DNA of 64,000 nucleotides from Paraburkholderia sprentiae WSM5005 (GTDB taxonomy: Bacteria; Pseudomonadota; Gammaproteobacteria; Burkholderiales; Burkholderiaceae): NCBI RefSeq assembly GCF_001865575.2, contig NZ_CP017562.2, positions 1,488,001 to 1,552,000 of the forward strand, written 5' to 3'. Of this stretch, positions 5,005 to 28,517 are shown piece after piece. How positions within the stretch are numbered: position 1 is the first letter of the stretch; every line of letters starts with the position of its first letter. The position numbers were made by a program, and so were the translations under genes. The notes beneath the pieces were generated by a model. That model worked only from the letters and a program-made list of their open reading frames with translations, made no database searches and was not told the DNA's origin.

Positions 5005-5015
5005 GGAGAATCACG

Positions 5016-6622: not shown

Positions 6623-6633
6623 GGAACATCGTC

Positions 6634-6956: not shown

Positions 6957-7436
6957 ACCTGCTGTCCGGGGTCGGGTCGAGTCGACCGAACTGTTCGGCG
7001 GCGAGGTGTCGGCCGCCGTGCGGCGCCTCATCGAAGGCCTGCACGGCGCGCCGGCCGAGCAGATCGTCGCGGTCCTGTGGAGCGTCACGCTGACGTCTCC
7101 GCAAAGCCTTGCCGCCTACTATCTGCTCTACAAGTTCCATGCCGGACGCTGCGAACTCGATAGGCAGAGCACGCGGCCCATCTGGGACTAATAGCATCTG
7201 CGCATGCCGCCGGGTTGAATGAGAACTGGCGGATGGTACAAGCCGGCGACGCGAACTTCCACGCGCCCGGTCCCGCCTGCTTCTGGCTGTTCACGCTAAA
7301 GGCGCTCGCCTTCATCGGCCTGCGGCGCGGCGAACGCGAAACCGCCACACAGTTGGTCGCACAACTACGGCAGCTCGATCCGGCGGATCACATCGGCTTC
7401 GGCGCAGTGGAAGCGTTGCTGCAACGGTCCGTCTGA
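6953..7436 (+). pseudogene. Broken copy of the conserved 161-residue nif-linked protein
   Basis: Three frames together reproduce the protein intact at 21,721-22,206. One piece reads ESTELFGGEVSAAVRRLIEGL, the next LTSPQSLAAYYLLYKFHAGRCEL and then a stop, and the last FHAPGPACFWLFTLKALAFIGLRRGE and LRQLDPADHIGFGAVEALL. About 20 residues around 7160-7220 are replaced and at least two frameshifts are present. Overlaps the preceding pseudogene by GTGA. The intact paralogue shows what was lost. Function unknown. Confidence 0.75.
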
Positions 7437-7447
7437 GGAGAAGCACG

Positions 7448-8109: not shown

Positions 8110-8597
8110 TGAGGAATTCCGGGCGAATTCTCACACGATACCTTGGCGGAATAAAGCCGGGCCAGGTAGACGGGTAGTGATGCGTGAGGAACAAACTTGC
8201 GTTGTTAATCGCTTTTACTGAATGTCTTAATGTTGGCCATTGCGGCCAGCCGCCGTCGATCCCAACTTCGACTCAACGAATGTCAGTACATGGACGCCGC
8301 CAGTTTGCCAACTTTTCAATCGATGATGATGGGTAGGTAGATTGCAACCGTACATTCGGACTTTCAAGGTGGCTGTGCCGCTGAGCCTGACGGGTTTCGC
8401 TGGTCGGTTCCTTGTCGCTTTCGCGCACTCGACGGTGCTCGGACATTCCCGGCTTTGCCGACCACGCTCTAACCTGTCGTGCCATCCACGATCGTGATCG
8501 TGCCAACGTCCACGTCAAATCCAGATTTGACTTGTCAGAGCCATTCGCCTCAGTCGCGATGTCGCGGCCCCGACACGCCGCAAGTCAGGCAGTCCTT
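8110..8597. other. Intergenic region between two converging units
   Basis: No recognisable protein on either strand. It separates the decayed IclR gene from the 3' end of nifA. Confidence 0.4.
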
Positions 8598-10493: not shown

Positions 10494-10640
10494 GGCAGGG
10501 CGGTGAAACTATAGTGCCTTGATTTGCCTATTTTCTCCTCTTGCCATCTCGCCGCGCGGATTCCGCCAAGAACGCGAGTCCAATTGATGTCGCTCAAACT
10601 GCAATTTGTCTACTCCAGGTGCAGCCGATTACAGGCGTCG
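10494..10640. other. nifA upstream region
   Basis: Short upstream interval of nifA. No convincing FNR box, nod box or sigma-54 promoter seen. Confidence 0.35.
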
Positions 10641-11160
10641 TCCCTCATTAATTGCTACCTCAGTCTGGTTCGCTATGCCGATGACTTTCTGATCACCGGT
10701 TACTCGAAAGAGTTGCTGGAAGACGAGGTCAAGCCACTGGTCGGGGTCTTTCTGCAGGAGCGCGGACTGACGCTCTCTCCGGAAAGACCAGGATCACGCA
10801 CGTCTTGCAAGGGTTCGATTTCTCGGGCATAACATTCGAAAATATCCGAACGGCAAGCTACTCATCAAGCCATCAAAACAGAATGTTCAAACGTTTCTAG
10901 TGACAGTGCGCTCAGTCATCAACGACAATGCATCGGCCGAACAGGTCACTCTCATCGGCCTGCTCAGCCCGATCATCGATGGCTGGTCGAACTGTCATCG
11001 ATGCTTGGTCTCGAAACAATATATAGCGCAGTCGACGCTGCCATCTGGCAGGCGTTGTGAAAGTGGTGCTGCGGGCGGCATCCGTGCAAGGGCGCACGAT
11101 GGATCAGAGCGCGATACTTCCATCGTGAAGGAACGCGGCACTGGGTATTGTCCGCGATAC
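10641..11160 (+). mobile_element. Group II intron reverse transcriptase/maturase remnant
   Basis: LVRYADDFLITGYSKELLEDEVKP is the reverse-transcriptase active-site block (YADD) of group II intron proteins. It continues as VFLQERGLTLSPE, then after a frameshift NGKLLIKPSKQNVQTF, LLSPIIDGWSNCHRCLVSKQ and VDAAIWQAL. This is the end of the RT domain plus maturase domain X. No 5' RT motifs or complete HNH domain are present, so the intron is dead. A second RT scrap lies at 14,209. Confidence 0.75.
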
Positions 11161-11873
11161 TGGTGAACTAACGGCAGAAGGGAACCCGGGACGAGGCTAC
11201 GCAAAGCATCCGACGTCCCAATCCGGCAACATACGTAAATCCGTGGCGAAGCCAATCCCTTTGACCCGGCATGGAAACACTCCTTTGAACACCGCTATGG
11301 TTCGAAATGGTGAACACCCTGTCGGGCCGAGGACAGCTGATACGCCTCTGGTTGGACCAGGAACGGGCCTGCCGGCCAGCGGTCGGGCCCGGACAAGCCA
11401 AGCGGCCCGATCAGCGTATGCTGCTCGCCCAGCACGCCGATATGACGCATCCGGCTTTCAAGGAGGCACCGGCGCGCCGCCATCTGCATGGCAGCGTGCC
11501 TTACGGTCGTCTGCAGCATGAACTCCAGTATCGGCCACGATACAAGTCGTCCGATTTCGACATCCAACGTGTGATTCGGCATGGCTTCCCGGCGAACCAT
11601 CATTCTCGTCTTTAAATGGACGCAAGCGTATCGAACACCGTCTGCCTGCGCCTTGATTTGGGTCAAGTAAGACATCAGGAACGCGTGGAGCGATCAGGCG
11701 ACTAAATCGCATCGCCGCCCCCGGCTCTGCGCACTGGTTTGACCGAATCATGGTGCGAAAACACGCGGACGATTTCCATTCGGGGGATTCTGGGGGAGTC
11801 ACGAACGGATTGGACAAGCGATGCGATTCATGAAACAACCGGACCTGTCCGCGTTGGAAGCCGCTTTCTTACC
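11161..11873. other. Unassigned stretch between intron debris and the fnr-type gene
   Basis: Several open frames on both strands but none with recognisable domains or good start sites. Probably mobile-element debris. Confidence 0.35.
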
Positions 11874-12662
11874 TCAGGCCGAAAGACTAGCGACCTTGCT
11901 CAATCCGGCGAAGTCGAGGATGCGGATTTCTCTACCGTTCACGGTGATGAGCCTCTGCCTCTGGAACCTCGACAATATGCGGCTGACCGTCTCCAGCTTC
12001 AACCCGAGAAAGCTGCCGGCCTCCTCGCGCGTCATTCGCAAGATGAATTCGGTCGGCGAATAGGCGCGTGCCCGCCAACGCCGCGAGAGATCCAGAAGAA
12101 ACGACGCAACCCGCTCGTCGGCCGCCATCGTGCCGAGCAGCGTACTGACACCGCGTTGCCGCACGAGTTCCGCGCTGAGCATTCGGTAGACGTGACTCTG
12201 CACCGCTTTGACTTCCCGGCTCAGCCACTCGAGCAGATGGAACGGCATCACGCATACGCTGCTGTCTTCAAGGGCGATGGCGTCGCTTGCATAATGGCCA
12301 GTAGCGATGCCGTCCAAGCCCATCGGATCGCCGGCAACATAAAACCCAGTGACCTGGTCCCGCCCGTCCGGAAGCAGCGAGAGCTTCTTGAACGATCCCG
12401 TGCGAACCGCATAGACGTTGCAAAATGAATCGCCCGCGCGGTGCAATGCTTCGCCTTTTCTCACGTGGCGATAGCCGAGAACGAGGTCGTCCATTTGCCG
12501 GTCGCAGGCGAGCTCATCGGGGTTCACCGCGCAAAACGGACGCATCGTGCAGGTCTTGCATGACGTGCCACTCGAACCCATGGGCTTCGTCCGCGAAGCC
12601 GTTGTCGAAGGCCGAAACGTGTCGGTCTGTGGCGCGGTAAGGCGATTGTGCGCAATTGCCAT
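11874..12662 (-). CDS. FNR-type oxygen-responsive regulator (Crp/Fnr family)
   Basis: 262-residue Crp/Fnr regulator. Near residue 35 the cysteine cluster CKTCTMRPFC, with a later cysteine in SSVCVMPF, matches the four ligands of the oxygen-labile [4Fe-4S] cluster of FNR. A cNMP-like beta-roll follows, then a C-terminal helix-turn-helix EEAGSFLGLKLETVSRILSRFQ. ATG at 12,662 was chosen because AAGGAG precedes it by 6 bp; an upstream TTG (12,680) would include that site. Likely activates micro-oxic genes and probably itself, given an FNR-like box upstream. FixK-like or Anr/FnrL-like naming cannot be settled here. Confidence 0.88.
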   Translation of the reverse strand: MAIAHNRLTAPQTDTFRPSTTASRTKPMGSSGTSCKTCTMRPFCAVNPDELACDRQMDDLVLGYRHVRKGEALHRAGDSFCNVYAVRTGSFKKLSLLPDGRDQVTGFYVAGDPMGLDGIATGHYASDAIALEDSSVCVMPFHLLEWLSREVKAVQSHVYRMLSAELVRQRGVSTLLGTMAADERVASFLLDLSRRWRARAYSPTEFILRMTREEAGSFLGLKLETVSRILSRFQRQRLITVNGREIRILDFAGLSKVASLSA

Positions 12663-12766
12663 GTGATTCTCCTTACTCAATCGATGTCCAAGTCTGTTTC
12701 ACAAACCCGTCTTTGTCATCTCGAAATTGCGCGGCTAACTGTCGCACAACTGAATCGAGGCAAACC

Positions 12767-12780
12767 ATGATCCAGATCAA
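12767..12780 (-). promoter_or_regulatory. FNR/FixK-type box upstream of the fnr gene
   Basis: On the minus strand TTGAT-CTGG-ATCAT, one base off the FNR consensus TTGAT-N4-ATCAA, about 105 bp before the regulator's start. Suggests autoregulation. Confidence 0.5.
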
Positions 12781-12839
12781 GCAAAGCAGACCGATCCGTC
12801 GGGGCGACAAGTGTCCCCCGCGAGTTTTATCGTGTTCGG

Positions 12840-13010
12840 GCATCGGTTTGGGTGACCGGAAGCTGTCGCCGTCAAGCACGATGCGGTGGGCACCGTGGCG
12901 TAGACGGTCGAGCGTAGCGGCACGGAGGATGCGGTTGCCGGCGAATGCCTCGCCCCACTCGCTGACGTCAAGGTTAAATGCAGGGTCTATTTTTACGCGA
13001 AGTGTCAGCC
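12840..13010 (-). mobile_element. IS21-family IstB helper ATPase C-terminal remnant
   Basis: The minus-strand frame contains NLDVSEWGEAFAGNRILRAATLDRLRHGAHRIV and LDGDSFR in sequence, the C-terminal region of IS21 IstB (family pattern EW...F....L..A.LDRL.H). No Walker motifs remain. With the istA scrap at 13,190-13,599 in the same order it is one internally deleted IS21-type element. Confidence 0.65.
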
Positions 13011-13101
13011 CCATGGGGCCGTGAACGCGACAGATCTAACCCCTGTCTCCCCGCATAATGATAATGTCTTTCGTGGCCGATCGCCACTACAGGAGGACGT
13101 C

Positions 13102-13251
13102 ATGTTGGCAACATACTTTGTTTCCCCACAGCGATTGCAAGAGCTCCGAGAAGGGCGCGGTGATGCTCTGCTGGAGCTCTTCTCGCAGGTTCTAAATGAG
13201 TCGGGCAGCGACAATTGTTTTGGCCGACCGGCCGTGCTGCTTGACGCTGTC
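13102..13251 (+). other. Possible integrase N-terminal scrap
   Basis: MLATYFVSPQRLQELREG with a strong AGGAGG site 5 bp upstream resembles the N-terminus of IS-linked tyrosine recombinases, but it runs out after about 35 residues into the istA remnant. Too short to be sure. Confidence 0.3.
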
Positions 13252-13599
13252 TAGGCGCACCGCGGAATAGCTGCCGGAGTAGCCGTGGTTGCGCTTGAGG
13301 ACACTGTGGATCGTCGTGCCCTGGACGTCGGACTCGAACCAGCGAGCAATCCGCTCGCGAAAGGGCTCGAGCGTCGACACGCAGATGCTGGGCAGGTGTG
13401 GTGTGCGGCCGAAGCGTCCGGCGATCACGGTGTCTTCCGGCAGCGGCTGCGCTGGATCGAGCCAGCCGAGCTCCAGGGCGACACCGCCTCACGGCGGGCC
13501 CATCAACCCGACGCGCGCGATGTCGCGGTCGGAATCGCCCTGCCGCATGCGGACAAGGACTTGGCGGTACTCAAACAATTCGAATCTCCGGTTGGCCAT
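13190..13599 (-). mobile_element. IS21-family IstA transposase N-terminal remnant
   Basis: Reading on the minus strand: MANRRFELFEYRQVLVRMRQG and SDRDIAR (helix-turn-helix start), an internal stop, then a later block RFGRTPHLPSICVSTLEPFRERI and TTIHSVLKRNHGYSGSYSAVR, matching the DNA-binding N-terminus of IstA. Interrupted and lacking the DDE domain. Confidence 0.65.
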
Positions 13600-13839
13600 G
13601 GGCGCTCCACTCAGAAAAGAGCGAAGCGTACCCAGTTGGGGAAAGTTCGAACCGCGTTCTGCTACACAGCGCAGGTGGCGCCTATGCGCCGATCATCAAA
13701 TGGCTCCTATACGGCGATCCGTGACACCATTCTGTTGGAGGATCTGCCCGGGTACGCCGCAACCGAAGGCCGTGCCGATCGATCTCGGGGTTCGGGGCGT
13801 CAATGCCTAAGTGTCATCAGTATAACTGATTAATCGCGG

Positions 13840-14139
13840 AAAACGGAAGACCCTGACCAGCACGCAGCGACGTTGGCTCAAGCGACGGCACGCGATCGAA
13901 CCGGTCATCGGCCATGTGAAGGACGACCACGGCATGCGGCGTTGCTGGCTCAAAGGGCAAACCGGCGGTGCGCTACACGCGGTACTGTGTGCTGCCGGTT
14001 ACAACCTGCGCTGGTTGCTGCGCGCCATCGTCCGTCTGGGCCTGGGGCCTGCATTTTTTATCCTCGCGGTGCTGCATTGGCTCGCCAATGTCACGCTGCA
14101 GCCGAGCGCTTGCTCGGCACAACCGCTTTCGATGGGCTG
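13840..14139 (+). mobile_element. IS5-family transposase C-terminal remnant
   Basis: KTLTSTQRRWLKRRHAIEPVIGH and VKDDHGMRRCWLKGQTGGALHA, then AAGYNLRWLLRAI, the C-terminal end of IS5-type DDE transposases. The N-terminal two thirds are absent. Confidence 0.65.
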
Positions 14140-14208
14140 ATTCCTGTTCGCCGACAGGCGCACCCTTGGTTGGCTCGCCACCGCAAACTGAATTTTGCAG
14201 GATCGACT

Positions 14209-14290
14209 ATCTACCCGCACTATGTCTTTGATTCGTGGATAGAGCGATGGCGGCGTCACCGCGCGCAGCAGGGGCCCGGCTTGAGGTGGA
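14209..14290 (+). mobile_element. Group II intron RT scrap
   Basis: IYPHYVFDSWIERWRRH matches the segment just before the YADD block in group II intron reverse transcriptases. Only about 25 codons remain. Confidence 0.45.
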
Positions 14291-14366
14291 GATACTGCCG
14301 CACATCAGCGCTCCCGTGAGAGTTATGGGGCCGAACGCTTGCAAGGCACTTCGGAGCGCAATTCAA

Positions 14367-14560
14367 GGCAACGACCAGATTGACACACGGCTTGCCGGTC
14401 GCGCCGAACCTGCTCGATCAGGCGTTTGCCGTCACTGCGCCGAATCAGGCTTGGTGTGGCGATATCCGTTATGTCGCCACAAAACCCTCGAAACCCAACA
14501 AAATCCATGCCGCAAAAACCTTGCTGAAAGATCCCATTTCCTAACTTGGGTGGATTGGTC
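14367..14560 (+). mobile_element. IS3-family OrfB scrap (left of nodD1)
   Basis: One frame reads TTRLTHGLPVAPNLLDQAF, then APNQAWCGDIRYVAT, the start of the rve catalytic domain of IS3 OrfB. A shorter copy stands at the same place beside nodD2 (22,455-22,560), so this scrap predates the nodD duplication. Confidence 0.55.
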
Positions 14561-15488
14561 TTCGCGTGGTCTCACGCGGAGGAACCATGCGTGACGCCTC
14601 CTGCAATATTATCTCCCGCATCCAATTGCTTGCCGGATCACTGTTGTGAAGGGCAGACCATTGGACGGCCTCGGTGAATGCGGGAAGCGGCAACGGAAGT
14701 TCGACGATCCGCAGAGGCGTCGTTTTTTCGAAATGCTTGACCAGCCTTAGGGGCATCGTCCCTATACGGTCAGTGTTTAATAGCATAGGCGCGATCATGC
14801 TAAAGCTCGGCACGATGACCTCGTCCCGTCTCTTGAGACCGTGCTCAAGCAAATACCATTCCTCGATGGAGGGCCGCCGCGTACGTCCGAACCTGACCAC
14901 CACGTGCCCCATCGACATGTATCTCTCGAATGTAAGCTGCCCTGATAGCTGCTTGTTCGTGCGGCAGCCTACGCACACGAGTGTCTCCTCGAACAGCTTC
15001 GCTTTAGGGTGCGCGCTCGACATGAACATTTCCGGCAAGATAAGAAAATCGGCTTCGCCGCGCCGAATAACCTCGTCGGGGTCATCGGCAAGTGGCAGCA
15101 ATTCGAAGCTGACGGCGGGAGCTTCCCGTGCAATACGCTCCACGATCTTTCGAAAAAATACGACTGCCATGAAATCGGAAAGGATGATCCTGAAGCGGCG
15201 ATCCGATTTGGCTGGGTTGAAGACGTCCCGGGAAATAACGGAGAGCTGGATGTGCACCAGAGCCTCGCGGATTGGAGCAGCGAGCCCTTCTGCACGCGGT
15301 GTTGGGACAAATTCCCGGCCCCTCATCGTAAATAGTTCATCGCAAAAATAGGCGCGTAGCCGGGCGACGGCCGCGCTCATGGCCGGCTGGCTCAGGTTGA
15401 TGCTGCGTGCCGCCGCGGTGAGATTACGCTCGGTCATCAGAGCATCGAGCGCGACGAGGAGATTCAGATCGAGGCCCTTGAAACGCAT
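14541..15488 (-). CDS. nodD: Flavonoid-responsive LysR regulator NodD, copy 1
   Basis: 315-residue Nod[21 protein letters not shown] and [25 protein letters not shown] form the characteristic LysR helix-turn-helix of NodD, and the effector domain contains [15 protein letters not shown] and [22 protein letters not shown]. It reads divergently from a nod box that starts 12 bp from its ATG, the classic nodD-nodABC layout. NodD binds the nod box and activates on plant flavonoids. The C-terminal ~12 residues ([15 protein letters not shown]) run into flanking debris and differ from copy 2. Otherwise nearly identical to nodD2. Confidence 0.95.
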
Positions 15489-15499
15489 GATCCCAAGTT

Positions 15500-15546
15500 A
15501 TCCATAATGTAGATGTGTTCCATCAAAACAATCGATTTTACGAATT
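15500..15546 (+). promoter_or_regulatory. nod box 1
   Basis: 47-bp nod box: ATCCAT, then GATG at +13, then ATCAAAACAATCGATTTTAC with AATT following. All conserved blocks and spacing are present. It points toward nodA, but nodA starts about 1.1 kb away because IS debris occupies the gap. Confidence 0.92.
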
Positions 15547-15630
15547 GTACGGCATGGAGGATAGTGTTCCTGGTAGATCCATTTCAATTTCGCAAAACCT
15601 GCTGGCGCCTTCGTGGTGCCCGGGTAGTGG

Positions 15631-15873
15631 ATGAAGTGTGTCGTAGAACTGAGCGAAGCCGAGGAAATGACGTTGCAGCAGTTGTCGATTAAGCACATGC
15701 ATCGGGACACGCGCACGCGAGCGGCAGCCCTGTCGCTGCTCGGACACAGGACCAATTGCAAGCTCACCGCCGAGCAACTCCGCGTGAGCGGGCAGTCGGT
15801 CCGTGACTGGCTCACGCATGGCGCAACATCGGCGTGTATGGCCCGACGGGCGGCCATAACGGTGGGAACATGA
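15631..15873 (+). mobile_element. IS630-family transposase N-terminal remnant
   Basis: MKCVVELSEAEEMTLQQLSI and RTRAAALSLLGHRTN, then LTAEQLRVSGQSVRDWLTHG, the helix-turn-helix start of an IS630-type transposase. Similar pieces follow nod box 2 (23,600) and lie at 43,494. The DDE domain is missing. It sits between nod box 1 and nodA. Confidence 0.65.
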
Positions 15874-16447
15874 AGCACCACTGGCGACGCTTCATCACCT
15901 GCACGAAGGAAACGCCGATGCCGAACTCGCTGAACTTTCTCGGCGGATACGGCACCAAATTTCAAGTCAATTTCTCGTGGACGCTCTCATGAATCCTCTA
16001 GCAAAACGTCGGGCCGGAGAAATAGAATTTAGGCATATCAAGACGGTTGTCGATCTTTGCCTTGACTCCGAGAAAAATCCTCAGGTGTACGTCGAGCATC
16101 CACCGAGGCACATGTCCAATGCGGCCACGGCCTTCGGCCGCATGGGCAAGCTGGATCGCGCCGACACGACGCGACAAGCGTCTGGCAGGTCGCGTAGGCA
16201 CTTACTACCGGCAAACCTTCGCAAAGTTTTCCAAACCCTTCCTATATCGGCCGGTTACCTTCGTACAGTTGAGGCAACCCTCGACTTCGCCTTGGCTTCG
16301 CGTCGAATCGGGAGCAGCCGATTGCAGGTGCCAAATGCTTCAGCGACCCGGCCAAATGGATCTCGTGTCAATCGCGGTCAGATCGTGCGGAAGATGCGGG
16401 GGAAGTCTTTGGTAGATCTGGTACGAAAGGCACGCGCACTCGATGTA
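15874..16447 (+). other. Debris between nod box 1 and nodA
   Basis: Contains an open frame from 15,977 without recognisable domains in its first 150 codons. No promoter seen. It lengthens the nod leader and may weaken or end transcription from nod box 1. Confidence 0.35.
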
Positions 16448-16567
16448 ATCTCCATCGTGGATGAGGTTCGAACGGTCCGTGAAGCGTTGACGGAAATACT
16501 CTTTTCTTCGGGCTTCATCCCAGAACTGTTCCAGAGTGCAGATGATTTCTTGAAATCGAACCGCTTT
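16448..16567 (+). pseudogene. FixJ/NodW-type receiver domain fragment
   Basis: ISIVDEVRTVREALTEILFS then SGFIPELFQSADDFLKSNR matches the first ~40 residues of FixJ/NodW response-regulator receivers (usual VDDD..VREAL..LL...G). The phospho-acceptor half and the DNA-binding domain are missing. It lies in an open frame that ends 36 bp before nodA. Confidence 0.5.
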
Positions 16568-16671
16568 CTCAGCAAGTCCTTCGCGTCCGTCAGGTCCGCC
16601 CTCAAAGGCCGGACGGCGCATAGGAGGCAGTCGTGAATTTGGCCGTGTCCACAGATAGAGGACCTCTCTCC

Positions 16672-17265
16672 ATGCGCTCTCAGGTGCGGTGGAGGCTGGT
16701 TTGGGAAAATGAGTTGCGACTCGCCGACCACATCGAACTGTCCGAGTTCTTCCGAAAGTCCTACGGACCGACCGGGGCGTTTAATGCAAAACCATTCGAA
16801 GGCAATCACAGTTGGGCTGGTGCGAGGCCAGAGTTCCGTGCAATCGGCTACGACGCGCGCGGCGTAGCGGCTCATATCGGCGCACTGCGTCGTTTCATCA
16901 AGGTTGGCGCAGTCGATCTACTAGTGGCCGAACTAGGATTGTACGCGGTACGTCCGGATCTTGAGGGACTCGGAATCCCTCAATTAATGCGCGTGATGTA
17001 TCCCGTGTTGCAGGAACTTGGCGTTCCATTTGGCTTCGGCACGGTTCGACACGCGTTGCGGCAACATATTGCAAGGCTGCTCGGCCGACCCGGTCTGGCG
17101 ACTATTGTGTCTGGAGTTCGCGTGAGGTCGACCCTTCGAGAAGTGCATCTCGACACGCCGCCCACGCGCATCGAGGACGTACTCATTGTCGTCTTACCGA
17201 TTGGACGGTCAATGAGCGATTGGCCGACCGGAACGATAATTGATCGGAACGGGCCAGAGCTGTGA
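16672..17265 (+). CDS. nodA: Nod factor N-acyltransferase NodA
   Basis: 197-residue NodA, which transfers a fatty acyl chain to the free amine of the chitin oligosaccharide made by NodC and NodB. The protein is well conserved: [45 protein letters not shown] and [19 protein letters not shown] at the end. An in-frame start at 16,633 exists, but ATG 16,672 gives the normal family N-terminus. The stop overlaps nodB by GTGA. Intact. Confidence 0.95.
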
Positions 17266-17954
17266 GGCACTGCTTATCCGAAGCGCGCAGCGAGTGCGCT
17301 GACACCAACGGACGTCGCGACGTCTATTTGACGTTTGACGACGGCCCTGATCCACTTTGCACACCGGACGTCCTCGATGTGCTGGCGGAACACCGGGTGC
17401 CAGCGACTTTTTGCGTCATCGGTGCGTACGCAGCGGACCAGCCGAAGCTGATCCGACGGATGATCGCAGAAGGGCACGAGGTCGCAAACCACACGATGAC
17501 TCATCCAGACCTGTCCAGATGCGAACCCACCGAAGTGCAACGGGAAATACTAACGGCAAGCAGGGTCATCAGGATGGCGAGCCCTCATGCTTCGCTGCGG
17601 TATATGCGTGCCCCGTATGGCATGTGGACCGAAGCAGTGTTCACTACGTCAGCGAGCGCTGGTCTGGCGCCCCTCCACTGGTCGGTAGACCCGCGAGACT
17701 GGTCTCGTCCCGGCGTGGACGCGATTGTCAGCGCAGTGCTGGACTCTGTCCGGCCGGGTGCAATTGTGCTCTTGCACGACGGATGCCCTCCCGATGAGTT
17801 GGGACGATGCACTCACGCTGGTCGGCGCGAGCAGACCCTCATGGCGCTTTCCCTCATGATTCCAGCATTGCATGACCGGGGGTTTGCAATCCGATCGCTT
17901 CCTCAACCTAACCGGACAAACCAGACACCCTATGAACATGCTTGCCGCAACTAG
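17262..17954 (+). CDS. nodB: Chitooligosaccharide N-deacetylase NodB
   Basis: 230-residue carbohydrate esterase family 4 enzyme that deacetylates the non-reducing end of the chitin backbone before NodA acylates it. Motifs: [10 protein letters not shown] with the metal Asp, [14 protein letters not shown] with the HxxxH metal ligands, RAPYGMW, and a C-terminal LLHDG. GTG start in a GTGA overlap with nodA, indicating translational coupling. The last 23 bp overlap the nodC start. Slightly longer than typical NodB. Intact. Confidence 0.95.
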
Positions 17955-18648
17955 CACTGTCGCTGTCTCGTCTTATGCGCTCCGGCTCCTTTTGCTGCTA
18001 GATCAGTACGAGACGCAACTTTTTCGCGGGAAGCCGAGCGACTTCGGCGAGGACCGTCATCTCACGATTCTCATGCTGACGGCAGGTTATCGGACCGAGT
18101 ACGTTCCGGACGCCATTGCGGCGACAGTCGTTCCGGACAGACTGGGGGCGTATCTGCGCCAACAACTGCGCTGGGCGCGCAGTACTTATCGGGACACGTT
18201 GCTTTCGCTGCGCCTGCTGCCCTGTCTAGATCGCTACCTTACGCTGGACGTGATCGGACAGAATCTGGGCTCGCTATTTCTCGCCTTCTCGCTTCTAGCG
18301 GGGCTCGCGCAGCTCGCATTGACAGCGACAGTGCCGTGGTGGACTGCCCTGATAATCGCATCATTGACCATGATCCGCTGTAGGGTGGCATCGGTTCGCG
18401 CTCGCCAGATTCGATTTCTTGGCTTTTCTCTTCACACACCCATTAACCTCTTTCTCTTGCTCCCCCTGAAAGCCTATGCGCTGCGTACATTAAGCAATAG
18501 TGATTGGCTGTCACGGAGCGCTGCTGCCAACGTACCATACGGAGGTGGAAACAGGCCGCCACCGGAAACCCGAAGACGGGACCGAACGCTACAGAATTTT
18601 CGGTATTGCGATGGCGCTTCGCAGAGCGGATCTTACGCGGTTCTTTGA
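17932..18648 (+). pseudogene. nodC: NodC with large internal deletion
   Basis: Begins [17 protein letters not shown], the NodC N-terminus, then jumps after a few unrelated residues to DQYETQLFRGKPSDFGEDRH, normally about 215 residues further on. The C-terminal third is preserved: GEDRH, the QQLRW product motif, and the membrane segments to SNSDWLSR. It then runs into unrelated sequence. The nucleotide-sugar binding aspartates and DXD region of the GT2 domain are gone, so chitin-oligosaccharide synthesis is impossible from this copy. Read in phase throughout, so this is a deletion, not a frameshift. Confidence 0.9.
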
Positions 18649-19305: not shown

Positions 19306-19375
19306 ACCGACATCGGTTCGACATTCTGTCCGCTAGCGGATGGAACCGATCGAGCCACCTCCAGCGCGGCCGCAT

Positions 19376-19391
19376 TGTCCGGAACTTAACA
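19376..19391 (+). promoter_or_regulatory. NifA upstream activator site (nifV2)
   Basis: TGT-N10-ACA, 95 bp before the -24 element, almost the same layout as at nifV1. Confidence 0.7.
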
Positions 19392-19485
19392 TTCGCGACA
19401 CGAACAATCGGACGATGCACCGCCATAACCCGACATTGTGCCGGTCAACATCCCGCAAATTGTGCTCCGACTGTAGGTGCTCGCT

Positions 19486-19501
19486 TGGCACAACGCTTGC
19501 G
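19486..19501 (+). promoter_or_regulatory. Sigma-54 -24/-12 promoter of nifV2
   Basis: TGGCAC-AACGC-TTGCG: perfect -24 box and spacing, ending 31 bp before the nifV2 ATG. Better match to consensus than the nifV1 promoter. Confidence 0.8.
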
Positions 19502-19531
19502 ATCCATCGCCGACAACTCAAGAGACCTGAC

Positions 19532-20668
19532 ATGCTCAATCCGATTATCAATGACACGACACTTCGTGACGGCGAGCAGACCGCCGGCGTCGCGTTTCGC
19601 ACCGAGGAAAAATGCGCAATCGCCGCCGCACTGTCGCAAGCCGGCGTGGCTGAACTCGAAATCGGAATTCCTGCCATGGGCGAAGACGAAATGGCGTGCA
19701 TCGCTGCAATCGTCGACCTGAACCTCGACGCCCGCCTGATGGTTTGGGGGCGCCTCACCGACGAGGATCTCACCGCGGCATTGCGCTGCGATGCCGATAT
19801 CGTTCATCTCTCAGTTCCCGTTTCGGATATTCATTTGCAACACAAGCTGCGGCAGTCGCGCAGTTGGGTACTGGCGCAGATCGCACGCGTCGTCGACGAG
19901 GCAGCGAAAAACCATCCCAAGATTTCCCTCGGCATGGAAGACGCCTCGCGCGCGGATCCCTCATTTCTCATAGAAGTGGCTCAATGCGCGCAGCAGCACG
20001 GGGCCCAGCGCGTGCGCTTTGCCGACACTGTCGGTATCCTAGACCCCTTTAAGACCTTCTACGCCATTGCAGCGCTGCGCGTCGCCGTCGATCTGGAGAT
20101 CGAAATCCATGCGCGTGACGACCTCGGGCTCGCCACAGCCAACACACTGGCCGCCCTTGGGGCCGGCGCGACACATGCGAGCACCACCGTCAACGGGTTG
20201 GGTGAGCGCGCCGGCAATGCAGCGCTGGAAGAAGTCGTGATGGGCGCGCGGCACCTGCTGCGACGAGACACTGGCGTCGACACCAGAGCGCTGCCCCACA
20301 TTTCGTCGCTGGTCGAACAAGCCTCAGGCCGCGCAGTTTCCTTCAACAAGAGCATCATCGGTAGGAGCATCTTTACTCACGAGTCGGGCATTCACACCGA
20401 CGGCCTCGCGAAGCACCCCACGACCTACGAGGGATTCGATCCAGCAGAGCTCGGCCGGCAACGGTCGACGATACTCGGGAAACATTCTGGATCTCAAAGT
20501 GTGCGTGAGGCCTACGACGCTCTAGGCGTGAGGGTGTCGGAGCGGCTCATCCCGCTCCTGCTTGCGCGCATCCGCTCTTTCGTCACGCAGTACAAGCAGG
20601 CGCCGAATGCAAGCGATCTGCGCCGCTTCCTGACCCAAGCCCACAGCACGCGGGTGAAGGTGTCGTGA
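19532..20668 (+). CDS. nifV: Homocitrate synthase NifV, copy 2 (altered metal site)
   Basis: 378 residues, same length as copy 1 and clearly homologous throughout ([34 protein letters not shown]). The metal-ligand motif HAHND of this family reads HARDD here (around 20,107-20,121): the second histidine of HxH is Arg and the following Asn is Asp. In homologous homocitrate and isopropylmalate synthases both histidines bind the divalent metal, so activity is doubtful. The reading frame and sigma-54 promoter are intact. Followed by the nifW-fixA fusion after 42 bp; the small Cys-rich ORF is lost. Confidence 0.88.
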
Positions 20669-20710
20669 GTGTGGTTATGGCGGCCAAACTTGTCCAATAG
20701 AAGTAACGAC

Positions 20711-21067
20711 ATGCAAGAAGTTATCGAACAACTGCGTCACCTGTCGTCGGCCGAGGATTTCCTGCGATTCTTCGACATCGCATTCGACGAGAAGGTGGTG
20801 AACGTGAGCCGCCTGCACATCCTCAAGCGCTTCTTTCAGAATATCGAGCAACAGAAAGAACTGCCGCGTAACAACGCGACGGCCCTGCTCGCCGTCTATC
20901 GATGCTTACTGCAGAAGGCCTACAACGAGTTCGTTGTCTCCACGCCCGCGGAACAAAAAGTCTTCAAAGCGTCCAGCCTGCGCGACGTGTCGCTGAAACT
21001 CGTGCACAAGATATTCGCTCGCCATCCGACATTGGAGGCGAACCTGTTGATGAAGAGGGCCCCTTGA
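20711..21067 (+). CDS. NifW-FixA in-frame fusion
   Basis: 118 residues. The first ~88 are NifW (MQEVIEQLRHLSSAEDFLRF, then VVNVSRLHILKRFFQNI, and TPAEQKVFK). The last ~30 are the FixA C-terminus (SSLRDVSLKLVHKIFARHP, LEANLLMK). A deletion joined nifW to the end of fixA without breaking the frame. NifW loses its last ~20 residues, and FixA loses its flavoprotein domain. It might still act as NifW. The stop overlaps the next frame by four bases. Confidence 0.8.
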   Translation: MQEVIEQLRHLSSAEDFLRFFDIAFDEKVVNVSRLHILKRFFQNIEQQKELPRNNATALLAVYRCLLQKAYNEFVVSTPAEQKVFKASSLRDVSLKLVHKIFARHPTLEANLLMKRAP

Positions 21068-21551
21068 ACTCGCCCGCTGCCTCGGAAAAGAAGCCGGCCG
21101 CGCCGGTCAAACGAGCCGCCGGCCGTAACCTCGATCTGCCCGAAGATCTGAAAGCCTGCCAGGGCGCCTGGGTCTTTCTCGAGCACGACCGCGGCCACGT
21201 GCATAGCGTGTCATGGGAGCTGCTCGGTGAGGCACCCAGCCCGCCGACAAACTCGGCAGTCGTGTCGCTGTGGCCGTGCTCGGCGGTACCGACGTGCCGC
21301 TTGAGCAGTTTGCCAGTGAGGCGTTCAGTTTCGGCGGGGACAAAGCGTATGTGATTCAAGGCCCTGTGTCGCTCGGCTATCGCAACGAACCGTTCACGAA
21401 GGAGGGGCTGACCGACCCGGTCAACAAGTACCGCCCCGAGATTCTGCTGCTCGGTGCAACCTCGATGGCCCGCGATCTCGCCGGATCTGTCGCAACGACG
21501 CTCTTGACCGGCCTCACCGCCGACTGCACTGAGCTGAACATTGACCCGTAG
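21064..21551 (+). pseudogene. FixB remnant, copy 2
   Basis: TTG in the overlap begins MNSPAASEKKPAAPVKR, then [23 protein letters not shown], where a frameshift near 21,233 follows. The next frame continues VAVAVLGGTDVPLEQFASEAF, then [20 protein letters not shown] and ends TELNIDP-stop. The whole C-terminal FAD domain is absent. Frameshift plus deletion: not functional. Confidence 0.8.
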
Positions 21552-21636
21552 TTGCCGCATTATGTGCACGGACCATCACAACCTCGAATGGGCGTGTCCG
21601 CGCGGCGGGCATCGCATCCAGTTCAGGTTCGCGTAG
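21552..21636 (+). pseudogene. FixX C-terminal remnant
   Basis: SCRIMCTDHHNLEWACPRGG then HRIQFRFA-stop, corresponding to the last ~28 residues of FixX. It begins right at the fixB stop, so one deletion removed the rest of fixB, all of fixC and most of fixX. Confidence 0.75.
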
Positions 21637-21720
21637 ACAAACACATCCATCGTCACATCGGCTTCCGAGCGCCGCAAAAGCGGCCGGACGCCTCACCACT
21701 CACCATATCGGAGCAAATTG

Positions 21721-22206
21721 ATGGATCTCATTACTGGTATCGAATCGACCGATCTCTTCGGCGGCAACGTTCCCTCCCCCGTGCTACAGCTGATCGAGAG
21801 AACCCGCGGCGGCAGCAATGACGATGTGGCCGCCGCGTTGTGGACTGCGGTCCTGTCGTACCCGCGCTGCCTGCCACCCTACTATCTGCTGTATAAGTTC
21901 CATGCGAACCGGGGTGAACTTGGCGAGGCGCAGGAGGTCGCGACCAAGGCTTTGGCGGTCGCCGCCCGGCAGGCGTCGCTCGACAGCGACTGGTGTGCGG
22001 TACAGCCGGGTGACACCGACTTCACCATTCCTGGTCCAGGCCGCTTCTGGCTCTTCACACTGAAGGCCCTCGCGTTCATCAGCGTGCGGCGCGGCGAGCG
22101 CGCCGTTGCACTGAAGCTGATCGCCAAGCTGCGCAGGCTAGACCCGATCGATTGCATAGGCTTGGACGTCGTGGAAGCCTTGCTCGCACAGTCCGGGTCC
22201 CGATAA
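21721..22206 (+). CDS. Conserved 161-residue nif-linked protein of unknown function
   Basis: Intact version of the gene that is broken at 6953-7436. Starts MDLITGIESTDLFGGNV; the central YYLLYKFHANRGELGEAQEV looks like a tetratricopeptide-type helix pair, then FTIPGPGRFWLFTLKALAFI and LRRLDPIDCIGLDVVEALL. Mostly helical, cytoplasmic, no signal peptide. ATG at 21,721 is preceded by CGGAG. It lies 84 bp after the fixX scar and is the only undamaged frame downstream of nifV2/nifW in this module. A scaffold-like role in nif/fix biology is inference from position only. Confidence 0.7.
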   Translation: MDLITGIESTDLFGGNVPSPVLQLIERTRGGSNDDVAAALWTAVLSYPRCLPPYYLLYKFHANRGELGEAQEVATKALAVAARQASLDSDWCAVQPGDTDFTIPGPGRFWLFTLKALAFISVRRGERAVALKLIAKLRRLDPIDCIGLDVVEALLAQSGSR

Positions 22207-22536: not shown

Positions 22537-23457
22537 TCACCGTGCCGAATGGGGGCTGCGTGACGCCTCCTGCAATATTATCTCCCGCATCCAATTGCTT
22601 GCCGGATCACTGTTGTGAAAGGCAGACCATTGGACGGCCTCGGTGAATGCGGGAAATGGCAGTGGAACTTCGACGATCCGCAGAGGCATCGTTTTTTCGA
22701 AGTGCTTGACCAGCCTTAAGGGCATCGTCCCTATACGGTCAGTGTTTAATAGCATAGGCGCGATCATGCTAAAGCTCGGCACGATGACCTCGTCCCGTCT
22801 CTTGAGACCGTGCTCAAGCAAATACCATTCCTCGATGGAGGGCTGCCGCGTACGCCCGAACCTGACCACCACGTGCCCCATCGACATGTATCTCTCGAAT
22901 GTAAGCTGCCCTGATAGCTGCTTGTTCGTGCGGCAGCCTACGCACACGAGTGTCTCCTCGAACAGCTTCGCTTTAGGGTGCGCGCTCGACATGAACATTT
23001 CCGGCAAGATAAGAAAATCGGCTTCGCCGCGCCGAATAACCTCATCGGGGTCATCGGCAAGTGGCAGCAATTCGAAGCTGACGGCGGGAGCTTCCCGTGC
23101 AATACGCTCCACGATCTTTCGAAAAAATACGACTGCCATGAAATCGGAAAGGATGATCCTGAAGCGGCGATCCGATTTGGCTGGGTTGAAGACGTCCCGG
23201 GAAATAACGGAGAGCTGGATGTGCACCAGAGCCTCGCGGATTGGAGCAGCGAGCCCTTCTGCACGCGGTGTTGGGACAAATTCCCGGCCTCTCATCGTAA
23301 ATAGTTCATCGCAAAAATAGGCGCGTAGCCGGGCGACGGCCGCGCTCATGGCCGGCTGGCTCAGGTTGATGCTGCGTGCCGCCGCGGTGAGATTACGCTC
23401 GGTCATCAGAGCATCGAGCGCGACGAGGAGATTCAGATCGAGGCCCTTGAAACGCAT
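22537..23457 (-). CDS. nodD: Flavonoid-responsive LysR regulator NodD, copy 2
   Basis: 306 residues, nearly identical to nodD1 over the first ~298, with a few substitutions (for example R for Q near GRTRQPS, P for L changes near the end) and a different C-terminal tail (SPHSAR). Divergent from nod box 2, 12 bp from its ATG. The duplicated block covers nodD, the nod box, the IS630 scrap and part of an IS3 scrap. Both copies look functional; differences could give slightly different inducer ranges, which is inference. Confidence 0.94.
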
Positions 23458-23468
23458 GATCCCAAGTT

Positions 23469-23515
23469 ATCCATAATGTAGATGTGTTCCATCAAAACAA
23501 TCGATTTTACGAATT
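23469..23515 (+). promoter_or_regulatory. nod box 2
   Basis: Same 47-bp nod box as at 15,500, base for base as far as read. It points toward nolO, whose start is about 430 bp away, with the transcript probably covering nolO-nodS-nodU. Confidence 0.92.
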
Positions 23516-23599
23516 GTACGGCATGGAGGATAGTGTTCCTGGTAGATCCATTTCAATTTCGCAAAACCTGCTGGCGCCTTCGTGGTGCCCGGGTAGTGG

Positions 23600-23690: not shown

Positions 23691-23948
23691 CCGCCGCATG
23701 TCTCGCAGAGATTGGGGATTTCCTCGGGGTTCCAGCGCTTCAGCTTTCTGGTCGCGCCATCCTTCAGCGCCAAGAAACGCAATCCCTGGACCAAACGGCA
23801 CAGAATTTTCATGAATTGCGGCGAGATTCTTTGGGGCTGGTGACGTCTGACCGGTGTTCCCAGCGGCGAGCGATACCCTGCCTTGCTTAGGTGGTAGGGA
23901 TTCGAGCCTTGCCAATAGGGCCTTCCTACCACGATGAAGGAGAGAGAC
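23691..23948. other. nolO leader
   Basis: Minus-strand frame with ENSVPFGPGIAFLGAE looks like mobile-element debris but is not recognised. AAGGAGAG at its end is the nolO ribosome binding site. Confidence 0.35.
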
Positions 23949-25961
23949 ATGCTGTGCTTAGGAGTGAGCGGCGGACTAGACAAAGTTCATGAAAATCCAC
24001 TCGCACTGCCGAACACATTTCTGCACGACGGCGCTGCGGTGCTTGTCCGGGACGGACGCGTAATAGCGGCCGTCGAAGAGGAGCGCCTCAACCGGATCAA
24101 GCACTCTAACAAGTTCCCGAGCAGTTCAATTCAATACTGCCTCGCATCCGCAGGGATTCAGCTCAGCGATATCGACCGCATCGCGTTTTACGCTACCGAG
24201 GCCTATTGCAACGTTATGCTCGAACGCCTGTTCCTGTCCCAGCCGAACATCTCCGTTCCGGTGGATGCCAAGCTGTTTCTGCGTAACTTACTAATGCAAG
24301 AATTCGGTACCGAGATCGATCCTTCGCGAGTCTCATTCGTGAGTCACCATCTGGCGCATGCCGTGAGCGCGTTTGCGATGTCTGGATTCGAGCAAAGTCT
24401 GATCCTCGCGGTTGATGGCGGCGGTGATTTCCTCTCGGGGCTCTTGGCGCTCGGATCTGGAACCGAAATTACGCAACTCGCGACTTTCGCAGAGCATAAT
24501 TCTCTAGGACTGTTTTATCTCGAAACAATCCGGTATCTCGGTTACGGCTTGTTCGACGAATACAAGGTCATGGGGCTTGCACCTTATGGGGATCCCGCTC
24601 CCTATCGCGGGCTCTTCGAGCAATTCTATCAACTGTCCGCCAACGGTGAGTACCGCGTCTACCTGGACCGCATCGGTCCGACGTTGCTCCGCAGCATCCA
24701 GGTCCGGCGAAAGGGAATGCCATTCACACAGCAGCATCGAGATGTGGGTGCTTCATTGCAGGAAGCGCTGGAGCGGATCGTGTTTCACATTCTCCGCCAT
24801 CATCGGGAGGTCACCGGTATGAAGCGGCTGTGTATAGCCGGGGGAGTAGCTCATAACTGCACCATGAACGGTAAGCTGCTGTATTCGGGACTTTTCGAAG
24901 ACATCTTCGTGCAGCCCGCAGCGCATGACGCCGGTTGCGCATTAGGCGCTGCCCTTATGATGTCAAACGACTTCGGTCGGCCCGCGCCGCGTGAGCGATT
25001 GCAGGAGGTTTATTGGGGGCCCGATCTGGGGAGCGATCTGGTCGTGGAGCAAGAATTGAATGCGTGGGCAGGACACCTCCACGTTGAACGCAGTGATGAC
25101 GTGGCAGGCAGAGCAGCGGACTGGATGGCCAATGGCGCCGTGATCGGCTGGGTGCAGGGTCGTTCGGAGTTCGGGCCACGCGCGCTTGGCAACCGCAGCA
25201 TTCTTGCCGATCCCAGGCCGGCCGCAAACAAGGACCGGATCAACGCCATGGTCAAAAAGCGTGAGGGTTACCGACCGTTCGCGCCATCAGTGCTCGAGGA
25301 CGATGCGCGCGAATTTTTTGACCTCCCAGAGGGCACCCGCGAATTCCCTTTTATGAATTTTGTAGTTCGCGTGCGCGACTCCAAGCGTGCCTTCCTCGGC
25401 GCCATCACGCACATTGACGGTACAGCGCGGCTGCAAACAGTTTCGCGCAAGACCAATCCCGCCTACTGGGAGGTTATTAATGCGTTCAAGAAGCGGACAG
25501 GAATCCCAATTCTGCTCAATACTTCCTTTAATAACAACGCTGAGCCGATCGTAGATTCGGTTGCAGACGCGATTGCCACATTTCTGACGACAGAGCTGGA
25601 TGGACTTGTGGTCGGGCCGTTCCTCGTCAAAAAGCGGCCCGCAACGCAGGAACATTGGACTGCGCTCGCGGTTTCACTGCCGCCCTATGCATCGCTCTAT
25701 CGAGTCCGCGCTCACACAGCGCGGGATCGTCAGGAAACGGTGTGCGAAATTCGCACCGGCGGCTCCAACTGTGACAGTGTGCGTATTTCACATGAGTTGT
25801 TCGATCTGCTGATGCTGATCGAAGGCGAAGCCGTGCTCGGACATCTTCTCGATACGATTACGCCTGAGCAGACTCGACGTGAAGCCCTCGTTAAGGAGCT
25901 GCGCGGATTGTGGGAACAGCGTCGGGTTCGGCTACATCCCTCACGGGCGTTGTCACGGTAA
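23949..25961 (+). CDS. nolO: NolO-type Nod factor carbamoyltransferase
   Basis: 670-residue carbamoyltransferase of the NodU/CmcH family. MLCLGVSGGLDKVHENPLAL and HDGAAVLVRDGRVIAAVEEERLNRIKHSNKFP are typical of NolO rather than NodU. VSHHLAHAVSAF and the ASKHA-type AVDGGGDF follow, and the C-terminal YrdC-like half has GRSEFGPRALGNRSILADPR and LNTSFNNNAEPI. NolO adds a carbamoyl group at the non-reducing end of Nod factors (3-O or 4-O). ATG 23,949 is chosen for the AAGGAGAG six bases upstream. First gene after nod box 2. Intact. Confidence 0.88.
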   Translation: MLCLGVSGGLDKVHENPLALPNTFLHDGAAVLVRDGRVIAAVEEERLNRIKHSNKFPSSSIQYCLASAGIQLSDIDRIAFYATEAYCNVMLERLFLSQPNISVPVDAKLFLRNLLMQEFGTEIDPSRVSFVSHHLAHAVSAFAMSGFEQSLILAVDGGGDFLSGLLALGSGTEITQLATFAEHNSLGLFYLETIRYLGYGLFDEYKVMGLAPYGDPAPYRGLFEQFYQLSANGEYRVYLDRIGPTLLRSIQVRRKGMPFTQQHRDVGASLQEALERIVFHILRHHREVTGMKRLCIAGGVAHNCTMNGKLLYSGLFEDIFVQPAAHDAGCALGAALMMSNDFGRPAPRERLQEVYWGPDLGSDLVVEQELNAWAGHLHVERSDDVAGRAADWMANGAVIGWVQGRSEFGPRALGNRSILADPRPAANKDRINAMVKKREGYRPFAPSVLEDDAREFFDLPEGTREFPFMNFVVRVRDSKRAFLGAITHIDGTARLQTVSRKTNPAYWEVINAFKKRTGIPILLNTSFNNNAEPIVDSVADAIATFLTTELDGLVVGPFLVKKRPATQEHWTALAVSLPPYASLYRVRAHTARDRQETVCEIRTGGSNCDSVRISHELFDLLMLIEGEAVLGHLLDTITPEQTRREALVKELRGLWEQRRVRLHPSRALSR

Positions 25962-26152: not shown

Positions 26153-26782
26153 TTGACACATCAAACGAACTTCGAATTGCTGAGTCGGGAATTGGACGCA
26201 GACGATCCATGGCGGCTCGACAGCAATCCCTTTGAGCACGAACGCCACAGGCAAATGCTTCGGATGGCACTTTCGCAGGGATCCGTCAAAAATGCGCTCG
26301 AAGTCGGATGCGCAGGCGGAGCCTTCACGGAAAAATTGGCACCGCACTGCCAACGGCTCACCGTGATCGATATCGTGCCACGCGCAATTGCTAGGACACG
26401 CGAACGGATGATGGACCCGCCGAACATCAATTGGATCGTCTCCGATGTCCAGCATTTTTCGACTGAGCAACAGTTCGATCTGGTCGTGGTGGCAGAGGTT
26501 CTCTATTACCTCGACGGCGGCGCCGAGGTGCGCGCCGCTGTCCGCAATTTAGCACGGATGCTTGCCCCCGGTGGACAGCTGGTTTTCGGATCGGCACGTG
26601 ACGCCAATTGCCGGCGATGGGGCCACATTGCCGGAGCCGAGACGGTCATAGCCATCCTGGAAGAAGAGCTGGTTGAAATCAATCGTTTGAGCTGCGTCGG
26701 TCAGTCGTTGAATGAAGACTGTCTGCTCGCCTGTTTTCGAAACGCGGCTTCGCCTTCGTGTGGACCAACTTACCAGCGTTAG
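26153..26782 (+). CDS. nodS: Nod factor N-methyltransferase NodS
   Basis: 209-residue S-adenosylmethionine methyltransferase that N-methylates the deacetylated, non-reducing glucosamine of the Nod factor. Family opening ELLSRELDADDPWRLDSNPFE is present; SAM motif I is ALEVGCAGGAFTE, and VVAEVLYYLDGG and GSARDANCRRWGH follow. TTG start at 26,153 fits the family N-terminus, with AAGGTAGGCGG upstream. A 191-bp gap separates it from nolO; nodU follows 13 bp after. Intact. Confidence 0.92.
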   Translation: MTHQTNFELLSRELDADDPWRLDSNPFEHERHRQMLRMALSQGSVKNALEVGCAGGAFTEKLAPHCQRLTVIDIVPRAIARTRERMMDPPNINWIVSDVQHFSTEQQFDLVVVAEVLYYLDGGAEVRAAVRNLARMLAPGGQLVFGSARDANCRRWGHIAGAETVIAILEEELVEINRLSCVGQSLNEDCLLACFRNAASPSCGPTYQR

Positions 26783-26795
26783 GCCGGGAGATATT

Positions 26796-28517
26796 ATGCG
26801 CATTTGTGGGATCAAACTGACGCACGACGGTGCGATCGCCCTTGTTGAGGATGGAAAACTGGTTTTTTGCGTGGAGCAGGAAAAGCGAGACAACAATCCG
26901 CGGTATCAGGCGATCGACGACCTCGACGCGATCGTGATCGCGTTGGCCGAGCATGGTTTCCGTGCGCACGATATCGACCAGTTTGTCATCGACGGCTGGG
27001 ACGGAGTAGTCGAGTCGCAGTTTCGCGTTCTCAGTGGGTCGATTCCCGTCAGCCTGAAAGGGGCTCCTTATGCCGAACGCCGAGCCGATGATCTTCTCGC
27101 TTCGCTCGACGGCTCCGGACTGCTTGTCGGCGGCCAGTCCTTTCCTTATAAAAGCTATCCTCACGTGTCAGGCCATGTGGCCTCCGCGTACTGCACCAGT
27201 CCCTTTGCCCAAAGCGGGCAACCTGCATTCTGTTTGGTGTGGGATGGTGGCATCGTCCCACGCCTCTATCATGTAGAACGCCACCACGCCCGCCATGTTG
27301 ACTGCCTGTTCCCCGTGATAGGTCACATCTACGCTGCGGCGGGTCATCACTTTGGTCCTTATAAGAAGCCGGGCGGTGCCCGGTGGGATCTGGGTGTGGC
27401 CGGCAAGCTGATGGCTTACATCGCGCTGGGCTCCGTTGACGAAGAGATCGTTGAGGTATTTCGCGGGCTTTATCAGGCACGCTTTGCTGGCGACACGGAG
27501 TGTGCGCAAGCTTATCGCGAGAACATCCACAGCGCGGACGCGTCACTAGCGGCTGTAGGAGAGTTCTTCGAAGCAAGCGCGCTGCGACTAGAAGCCAAGC
27601 CGCCCGAAGACGTACTCGCCTCGTTCCATGTATTCCTCGAGCGTCTTCTCGTTCATGAAATGGGTATCGCGCTGCAGCGCCATTCGATTGCGGGCCCGAA
27701 AAATTTGTGCATCGCTGGCGGATGCGGACTCAATATCAAATGGAACAGCGCCCTGCGCGCGAGCGGTTTGTTCGACGCAATCTGGGTGCCGCCGTTTCCC
27801 AACGATAGCGGGTCTGCGATTGGCGCCGCTTGTTGCGCGCTGGCAGCCGAGAAGGGCTTCGTGCCGCTGGAGTGGTCGGTATATAGCGGACCGGCCTTAA
27901 AAGGTTGCCAAGTACCGCCCGGATGGACGGCGTCTACTTGCTCCATTGCAGAACTCGCCAGCATACTCGCCAGTAGCGAGCCCGTCATTTTCCTTGCCGG
28001 CCGGGCCGAGCTCGGACCACGAGCATTGGGGGGCAGAAGCATTCTGGCCGCCGCGACTTTGCCCACAATGAAGGATCATCTCAACGACATCAAGTTTCGA
28101 GAGCACTTCCGTCCCGTAGCGCCAATATGCCTTGAGGATCGTGCGCCGACCATTTTTAGCCCGGGGAGCCCTGATCCCTATATGTTGTTCGATCATCAGA
28201 CGCGCGCGGAATGGCGAGAACAAATCCCTGCCGTCGTGCATCTAGACGGATCTGCCCGATTGCAGACCATTTCAAGAACTTCCGAGCATCCGGTGGCGCA
28301 ACTTCTGGTCGAATACGAAAAACTGACGGGTATTCCGTTGCTCTGCAACACGAGCGCCAACTATCACGGACGAGGTTTCTTCCCGGACGCTGCTTCAGCC
28401 TGTGCGTGGGGACGCGTCGAACGTGTGTGGTGCGATGGTTTGTTACTGACCAGGACTGGTCTGTCGCCGTCAGTCGACGAAACAATTTTCGCTACGTCGC
28501 CGTTCGAAGATTGCTGA
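26796..28517 (+). CDS. nodU: Nod factor 6-O-carbamoyltransferase NodU
   Basis: 573-residue NodU, which transfers carbamoyl from carbamoyl phosphate to the 6-O of the non-reducing sugar. Opens MRICGIKLTHDGAIALVEDG and EQEKRDNNPRYQ; contains SYPHVSGHVASAYC, FCLVWDGGIVPRLYHVE, IAGGCGLNIKWNSALR, AGRAELGPRALGGRSILA and LLCNTSANYHGRGF. Length and motifs match rhizobial NodU. ATG 26,796 follows GGGAG. Last gene of the nod box 2 unit. Intact; together with NolO it implies a doubly carbamoylated, N-methylated Nod factor, if the backbone is made. Confidence 0.95.
   Translation: MRICGIKLTHDGAIALVEDGKLVFCVEQEKRDNNPRYQAIDDLDAIVIALAEHGFRAHDIDQFVIDGWDGVVESQFRVLSGSIPVSLKGAPYAERRADDLLASLDGSGLLVGGQSFPYKSYPHVSGHVASAYCTSPFAQSGQPAFCLVWDGGIVPRLYHVERHHARHVDCLFPVIGHIYAAAGHHFGPYKKPGGARWDLGVAGKLMAYIALGSVDEEIVEVFRGLYQARFAGDTECAQAYRENIHSADASLAAVGEFFEASALRLEAKPPEDVLASFHVFLERLLVHEMGIALQRHSIAGPKNLCIAGGCGLNIKWNSALRASGLFDAIWVPPFPNDSGSAIGAACCALAAEKGFVPLEWSVYSGPALKGCQVPPGWTASTCSIAELASILASSEPVIFLAGRAELGPRALGGRSILAAATLPTMKDHLNDIKFREHFRPVAPICLEDRAPTIFSPGSPDPYMLFDHQTRAEWREQIPAVVHLDGSARLQTISRTSEHPVAQLLVEYEKLTGIPLLCNTSANYHGRGFFPDAASACAWGRVERVWCDGLLLTRTGLSPSVDETIFATSPFEDC

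Follow-up and report, generated by a model that had tools for sequence, protein, structure and literature searches.

The truncated nodC in a Paraburkholderia sprentiae WSM5005 symbiosis region is very probably a pseudogene among redundant nod operons

Nod factors are built by a small set of enzymes, with chain synthesis by NodC, deacetylation by NodB, acylation by NodA, export by NodI and NodJ, and decoration by enzymes such as NodS and NodU. Duplicated nod and nif genes are said to have been described in papilionoid-nodulating Paraburkholderia by De Meyer et al. 2016 (MPMI 29:609). That study is cited in PMC6337347, the accessible portion of which also refers to earlier descriptions of non-canonical nod clusters in the papilionoid-type group. 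Papilionoid-type symbiosis regions are represented here by P. sprentiae WSM5005, a strain reported to form effective nodules on Lebeckia ambigua (PMC4062628 and PMC8073898, in the portions available).

The WSM5005 genome comprises 7.84 Mb in five contigs, and the whole stretch of DNA analyzed, referred to here as the window, is 64,000 bp of the second contig (C2:1488001-1552000). At 17932..18648 on the forward strand is a 238-codon reading frame, its start codon within the 3' end of nodB, which retains, as noted in the preliminary description, the first ~17 residues and the C-terminal part of NodC including QQLRW. Alignment with a full NodC from the same genome shows that it consists of residues 1-17, a single junction residue (R), and residue 219 onward joined in frame, so that the loss itself stands but corresponds to a net 200 codons rather than the ~215 residues first estimated. 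By eye on this alignment, the VDDGS and NVDSDT stretches fall among the deleted residues and GEDRH and QQLRW are kept; we take these four to be glycosyltransferase-2 motifs, with VDDGS and NVDSDT presumably binding the donor, in keeping with the earlier observation that the sugar-nucleotide aspartates are gone. The remnant scores 328 bits against the TIGR04242 NodC model, below the curated cut-off of 550, with a match confined to model positions 218-395 of 395 and nothing matching positions 1-217. The deletion junction (17974..17991, forward strand) reads TATGCGCT at 17974-17981 followed by CCG, and the retained 3' frame is free of stops.

The neighboring nod genes are in better condition. Intact nodA (16633..17265; 355 bits, cut-off 295), nodB (17262..17954; 338 bits, cut-off 240), nodS (26153..26782; 354 bits, cut-off 300) and nodU (26712..28517; 1087 bits, cut-off 1000), all on the forward strand, score above the cut-offs of their own models, in agreement with the preliminary description; the true start of nodU is probably internal to this frame, because the model match begins at residue 29. 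The gene at 23934..25961 (forward strand), previously called an intact nolO, is an open frame with both carbamoyltransferase Pfam domains, and the name is the earlier label only, as the model search listed no NolO model for it. Its nolO-like counterpart at 170.6 kb of the fifth contig (C5) is without about 105 bp that are present at window 24404-24510. Upstream of nodA, a nod box matching 38 of 41 consensus positions (15499..15547, forward strand) adjoins a LysR-type regulator gene (14541..15488, reverse strand), which had no NodD model among its matches and is taken as nodD from its family and place. A second, very similar LysR/nodD-like gene (22537..23457, reverse strand) and a second nod box (23468..23516, forward strand; 38 of 41) lie further to the right. 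Background for these matches was provided by 20 shuffles of a 3-kb stretch, which reached at most 25 of 41, and the next best sites in the window also reached at most 25.

Several other features of the window involve repeated genes. A nifV copy is located 3' of the nodC remnant (19340..20668, forward strand), and by eye it opens a second nifV-nifW-fix stretch (19340-22206) in which fixA and fixB are seemingly in pieces, with intact-looking fixA, fixB and fixC at 2975-6326. Within it, the 132-codon frame at 20669-21067 encodes NifW (Pfam) with a tail that by eye resembles the C-terminal ~30 residues of FixA (gene at 2975-3904); it looks like a fusion produced when a second nif/fix copy, now decaying, underwent a deletion. 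NifV has four close matches in the genome, two with equal scores; three nifV genes are reported for this strain in the available part of PMC8073898, and a draft assembly might have collapsed the two of equal score into one, the published draft being 7.76 Mb according to the accessible portion of PMC4062628. The segments at 36977-39107 and 46191-48231 are near-identical copies, each with a creatinase/peptidase-like gene and then a gene for an IclR-like regulator, both labeled by eye.

The possibility raised at the outset that a second nodC exists elsewhere was borne out by a genome search, which recovered two full-length copies of 452 codons each. The first (C2:1450912-1452267) is on the same replicon but beyond the window, lying 54 kb upstream of the remnant, and the second (C5:230697-232052) is on a 488-kb contig; they score 733 and 734 bits against TIGR04242, are followed by nodI and nodJ, and belong to nodBCIJ operons preceded by nod boxes matching 37 of 41 positions. 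The nodB of the C5 operon is open and that of the C2 operon is frameshifted, with several indels, owing to which the C2 operon may be poorly translated. A fourth nodC, at C5:176.5-177.2 kb after the C5 nodAB genes, has frameshifts and is missing its 3' third, a lesion unlike that of the remnant. The only full nodA genes found in the genome are those in the window and at C5:178 kb. We refer to the nodA-nodB-nodC arrangement as locus A and to nodB-nodC-nodI-nodJ as locus B. With two full copies as intact paralogues, the window nodC is very probably a pseudogene among redundant nod operons, and Nod-factor synthesis would still be expected because full nodC genes are present in nod-box-led nodBCIJ operons on both C2 and C5.

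Both loci lie within a duplicated stretch of ~67 kb (C2:1449720-1516662 and C5:166483-233241), in which the gene order is the same but inverted and blocks of 93-99.6% identity are interspersed with some gaps. In the block covering window 1-17981 all differences between C2 and C5 are restricted to positions before about 1000 or after 17000, such that window positions from about 1000 to 17000 and C5:178-194 kb have no base differences over about 16 kb, with lower identity around. The tract, one end of which is no more than about 1 kb from the nodC remnant, suggests that gene conversion or re-duplication occurred between the replicons quite recently.

Among 144 genomes of the genus searched for nodA, 27 have a match: WSM5005 itself, nine with 94-99% identity to the window gene, sixteen with 63-74%, and one (G095) with a stump only. 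The nine close relatives are P. podalyriae WC7.3b (G073), P. tuberum STM678 (G139), P. kirstenboschensis LMG 28727 (G049), P. dilworthii WSM3556 (G024), P. rhynchosiae WSM3937 (G076), Paraburkholderia sp. BL25I1N1 (G096), sp. BL9I2N2 (G100), and the genomes G099 and G101. The close nodA in these nine and the interspersed nod and nif genes are those of a papilionoid-type symbiosis region. All nine carry two nod loci, spaced about 48-60 kb apart where both are on one contig. Locus A usually has a damaged nodC, which is sometimes nearly gone, and is followed by nifV in 9 of 11 stretches, with none found within the stretches fetched for G099 and G100; locus B is preceded in 8 of 11 by a stump encoding the last ~50 residues of NodA. 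The nod-box search covered eight of the eleven B loci and two A loci, and each of the eight B loci has a box matching 36-38 of 41 positions. Four of the sixteen genomes with the more distant nodA were searched for nodC, and each has one strong match. In G095 a stump of NodA and fragments of nodC, two of these at contig ends, lie on contigs C44, C29 and C41 and no full nodA was found; this genome has either lost symbiosis or has an assembly gap, and was excluded from the comparisons below.

These comparisons use eleven A/B pairs from ten genomes, WSM5005 being counted twice. Full nodA is present at locus A in all eleven pairs, and only there. At locus A nodB is open in nine, and the two exceptions, with stops at residues 142 (G101) and 108 (G096), both have an open nodB at locus B, where the only other open copy is that of C5 (3/11). 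The locus A nodC is broken in nine pairs, is scrambled toward its C-terminus in G101, and in G099 is open apart from a 9-residue gap close to QRLRW; because the latter two score 602 and 684 bits respectively, above the 550 cut-off, nodC at locus A has not decayed fully in all strains. At locus B nodC is open in ten pairs (452-453 codons) and frameshifted in G099. Both nodI and nodJ are at locus B in all eleven, although nodJ of G099 is in two frames, and neither was found at locus A in any of the stretches searched (0/11). The breaks in the G099 locus B nodC are single added bases and could be sequencing errors, and with these and the gap at locus A the case for G099 as a strain in which the loci have swapped roles is weakened. 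No pair has lost both nodB genes, nor clearly both nodC genes; given the numbers of losses observed, chance alone would spare every pair a double loss with a probability of 0.05 (nodB) or 0.18 (nodC), uncorrected for kinship, and a complementary pattern beyond chance is thus suggestive only.

Loci A and B seem to exchange segments. Their median DNA identity is 79% in nodB, the window copy of which is of the A type; for nodC it is 82% over the first two thirds and 94% over the last third. The 3' half of the P. tuberum locus B nodB is of the A type (95.7%). This P. tuberum gene (L091 1850-2335) joins a B-type start to the A-type 3' half and has lost its middle. In a nodB tree ten of the eleven B copies separate from the A copies with support of 1.00 and the P. 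tuberum B copy groups with A, and in nodC trees the A and B copies are intermixed, which fits gene conversion; neither the deep nodes nor the position of the P. ribeironis outgroup can be relied on, and the trees, although consistent in outline with such exchange, are unfit for fine dating. The edge of the C2/C5 match at 17981 was considered as a crossover between loci and rejected: because A and B copies of nodC generally resemble one another in their 3' third, this edge marks only the start of the deletion.

The deletion in the window has a counterpart in P. tuberum STM678, whose locus A nodC has the same 5' breakpoint, reading TATGCGCTCCG as the window does, and picks up again at the same 3' position. 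Between these points it has one extra base and one mismatch relative to the window, and the joined sequence is out of frame and ends at 150 codons. The A loci of the two strains are the closest by nodB (97.5%) and group together in the tree with 0.94 support, which with the common breakpoint argues for a shared deletion. The P. tuberum allele also argues against two other explanations of the remnant, an assembly collapse and selection for a short NodC, because the breakpoint is the same and the P. tuberum allele reads out of frame. The C-terminus of the remnant, NVPYGGGNRPP..., corresponds to the tail of the locus A nodC genes of G099 and G101 read beyond their stop; a frameshift as the source of this tail was rejected, since the locus A genes of these two strains show the same tail past the old stop.

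An assembly collapse between nodC copies might be suspected in a genome with four related nodC stretches, the more so as the remnant and both B copies are 94-96% identical over the 3' third of nodC. It is nonetheless very unlikely, given that the same 5' breakpoint is found in the separately sequenced P. tuberum assembly, that the 3' tail of the remnant is of the locus A type, and that no long repeat common to both sides of the junction was seen by eye in the alignment.

Slightly less likely again is the suggestion in the preliminary description that Nod-factor synthesis was recently lost, leaving orphan tailoring genes. The nodC beside the window nodAB does lack its catalytic half, and the second nodAB-adjoining nodC, on C5, is broken too, but the same genome has two full nodC genes with nodIJ, both behind nod boxes, and at least one open full-length copy each of nodA, nodB, nodC, nodI, nodJ, nodS and nodU. 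Moreover, P. tuberum STM678, with a similar deletion, is reported to nodulate siratro effectively (PMC4585168, in the part available).

In the 3' part of nodC the remnant and P. tuberum differ by 7 synonymous and 8 nonsynonymous codons, with dN/dS of about 0.4, whereas 33 pairs of B copies range from 0.11 to 0.31, with a median of 0.18. Values between the remnant and the B copies are mostly low (e.g. 0.020/0.103 against C2), as expected if most of the divergence is older than the deletion, and are not proof of decay. A functional short NodC, acting perhaps as a decoy for the full-length enzyme or as its membrane partner, could draw on the in-frame junction, the open 3' frame and the dN/dS below 1 with P. 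tuberum, on only 15 changed codons, but is every bit as improbable as recent loss, since the sister allele is out of frame, other strains have quite different lesions of the same gene, and the stop used by G099 and G101 is read through in the window.

Under the pseudogene reading, an ancestor of this Paraburkholderia group would have had two divergent nod operons, of which locus B would have lost nodA and locus A is without detected nodIJ. The nodB and nodC genes would then have decayed strain by strain, usually with one good copy of each left, as recombination blended parts of the copies. In WSM5005 a net 600-bp internal deletion would have taken the donor-binding half of the window NodC, and judging from the lost motifs the remnant is not expected to polymerize N-acetylglucosamine. 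Chain synthesis is predicted to depend on the locus B NodC, deacetylation on the locus A NodB or the C5 locus B NodB, acylation on the locus A NodA, export on the locus B NodIJ, and decoration on the NodS, NodU and carbamoyltransferase of the window.

We also raise, as a speculation that we consider doubtful, that throughout these papilionoid nodulators the core Nod-factor operon is permanently split, with two diverged operons decaying in a complementary and strain-specific manner accompanied by gene conversion, nodA coming only from one and nodC nearly only from the other, and the split maybe being selected. If so, the two nod boxes and two nodD-like genes may allow the acyl-transferase and the chain synthase to be set separately. 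More immediately, the pseudogene reading removes a false alarm, that a nodulating strain had lost Nod-factor synthesis, and it cautions that dead or mosaic copies can be sampled when nodC is used for trees or PCR typing in this group. The strains together provide a natural series in which a duplicated symbiosis operon is pared down with its function kept.

A literature search by title and abstract opening, with the text of De Meyer et al. 2016 lying outside its coverage, found nothing among the records listed on the decay of duplicated nodC in Paraburkholderia, and did not show either the piecewise complementary decay or the common nodC breakpoint. The nearest likeness is to the papilionoid nod clusters of that study, which belong to the same host group, with nod clusters that are split and interrupted by nif genes and, reportedly, with nod and nif duplications. 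Measured against the NodC chitooligosaccharide synthase family (TIGR04242), the remnant is clearly NodC in its C-terminal part, and differs in falling below the family cut-off with the first 217 model positions unmatched. Compared with the single-copy nodBCIJHASU operon of mimosoid-nodulating Paraburkholderia, as given in the accessible portion of PMC6337347, locus B has the same nodBCIJ order, whereas the one nodC copy of those strains (four genomes tested) contrasts with the four nodC stretches of P. sprentiae WSM5005.
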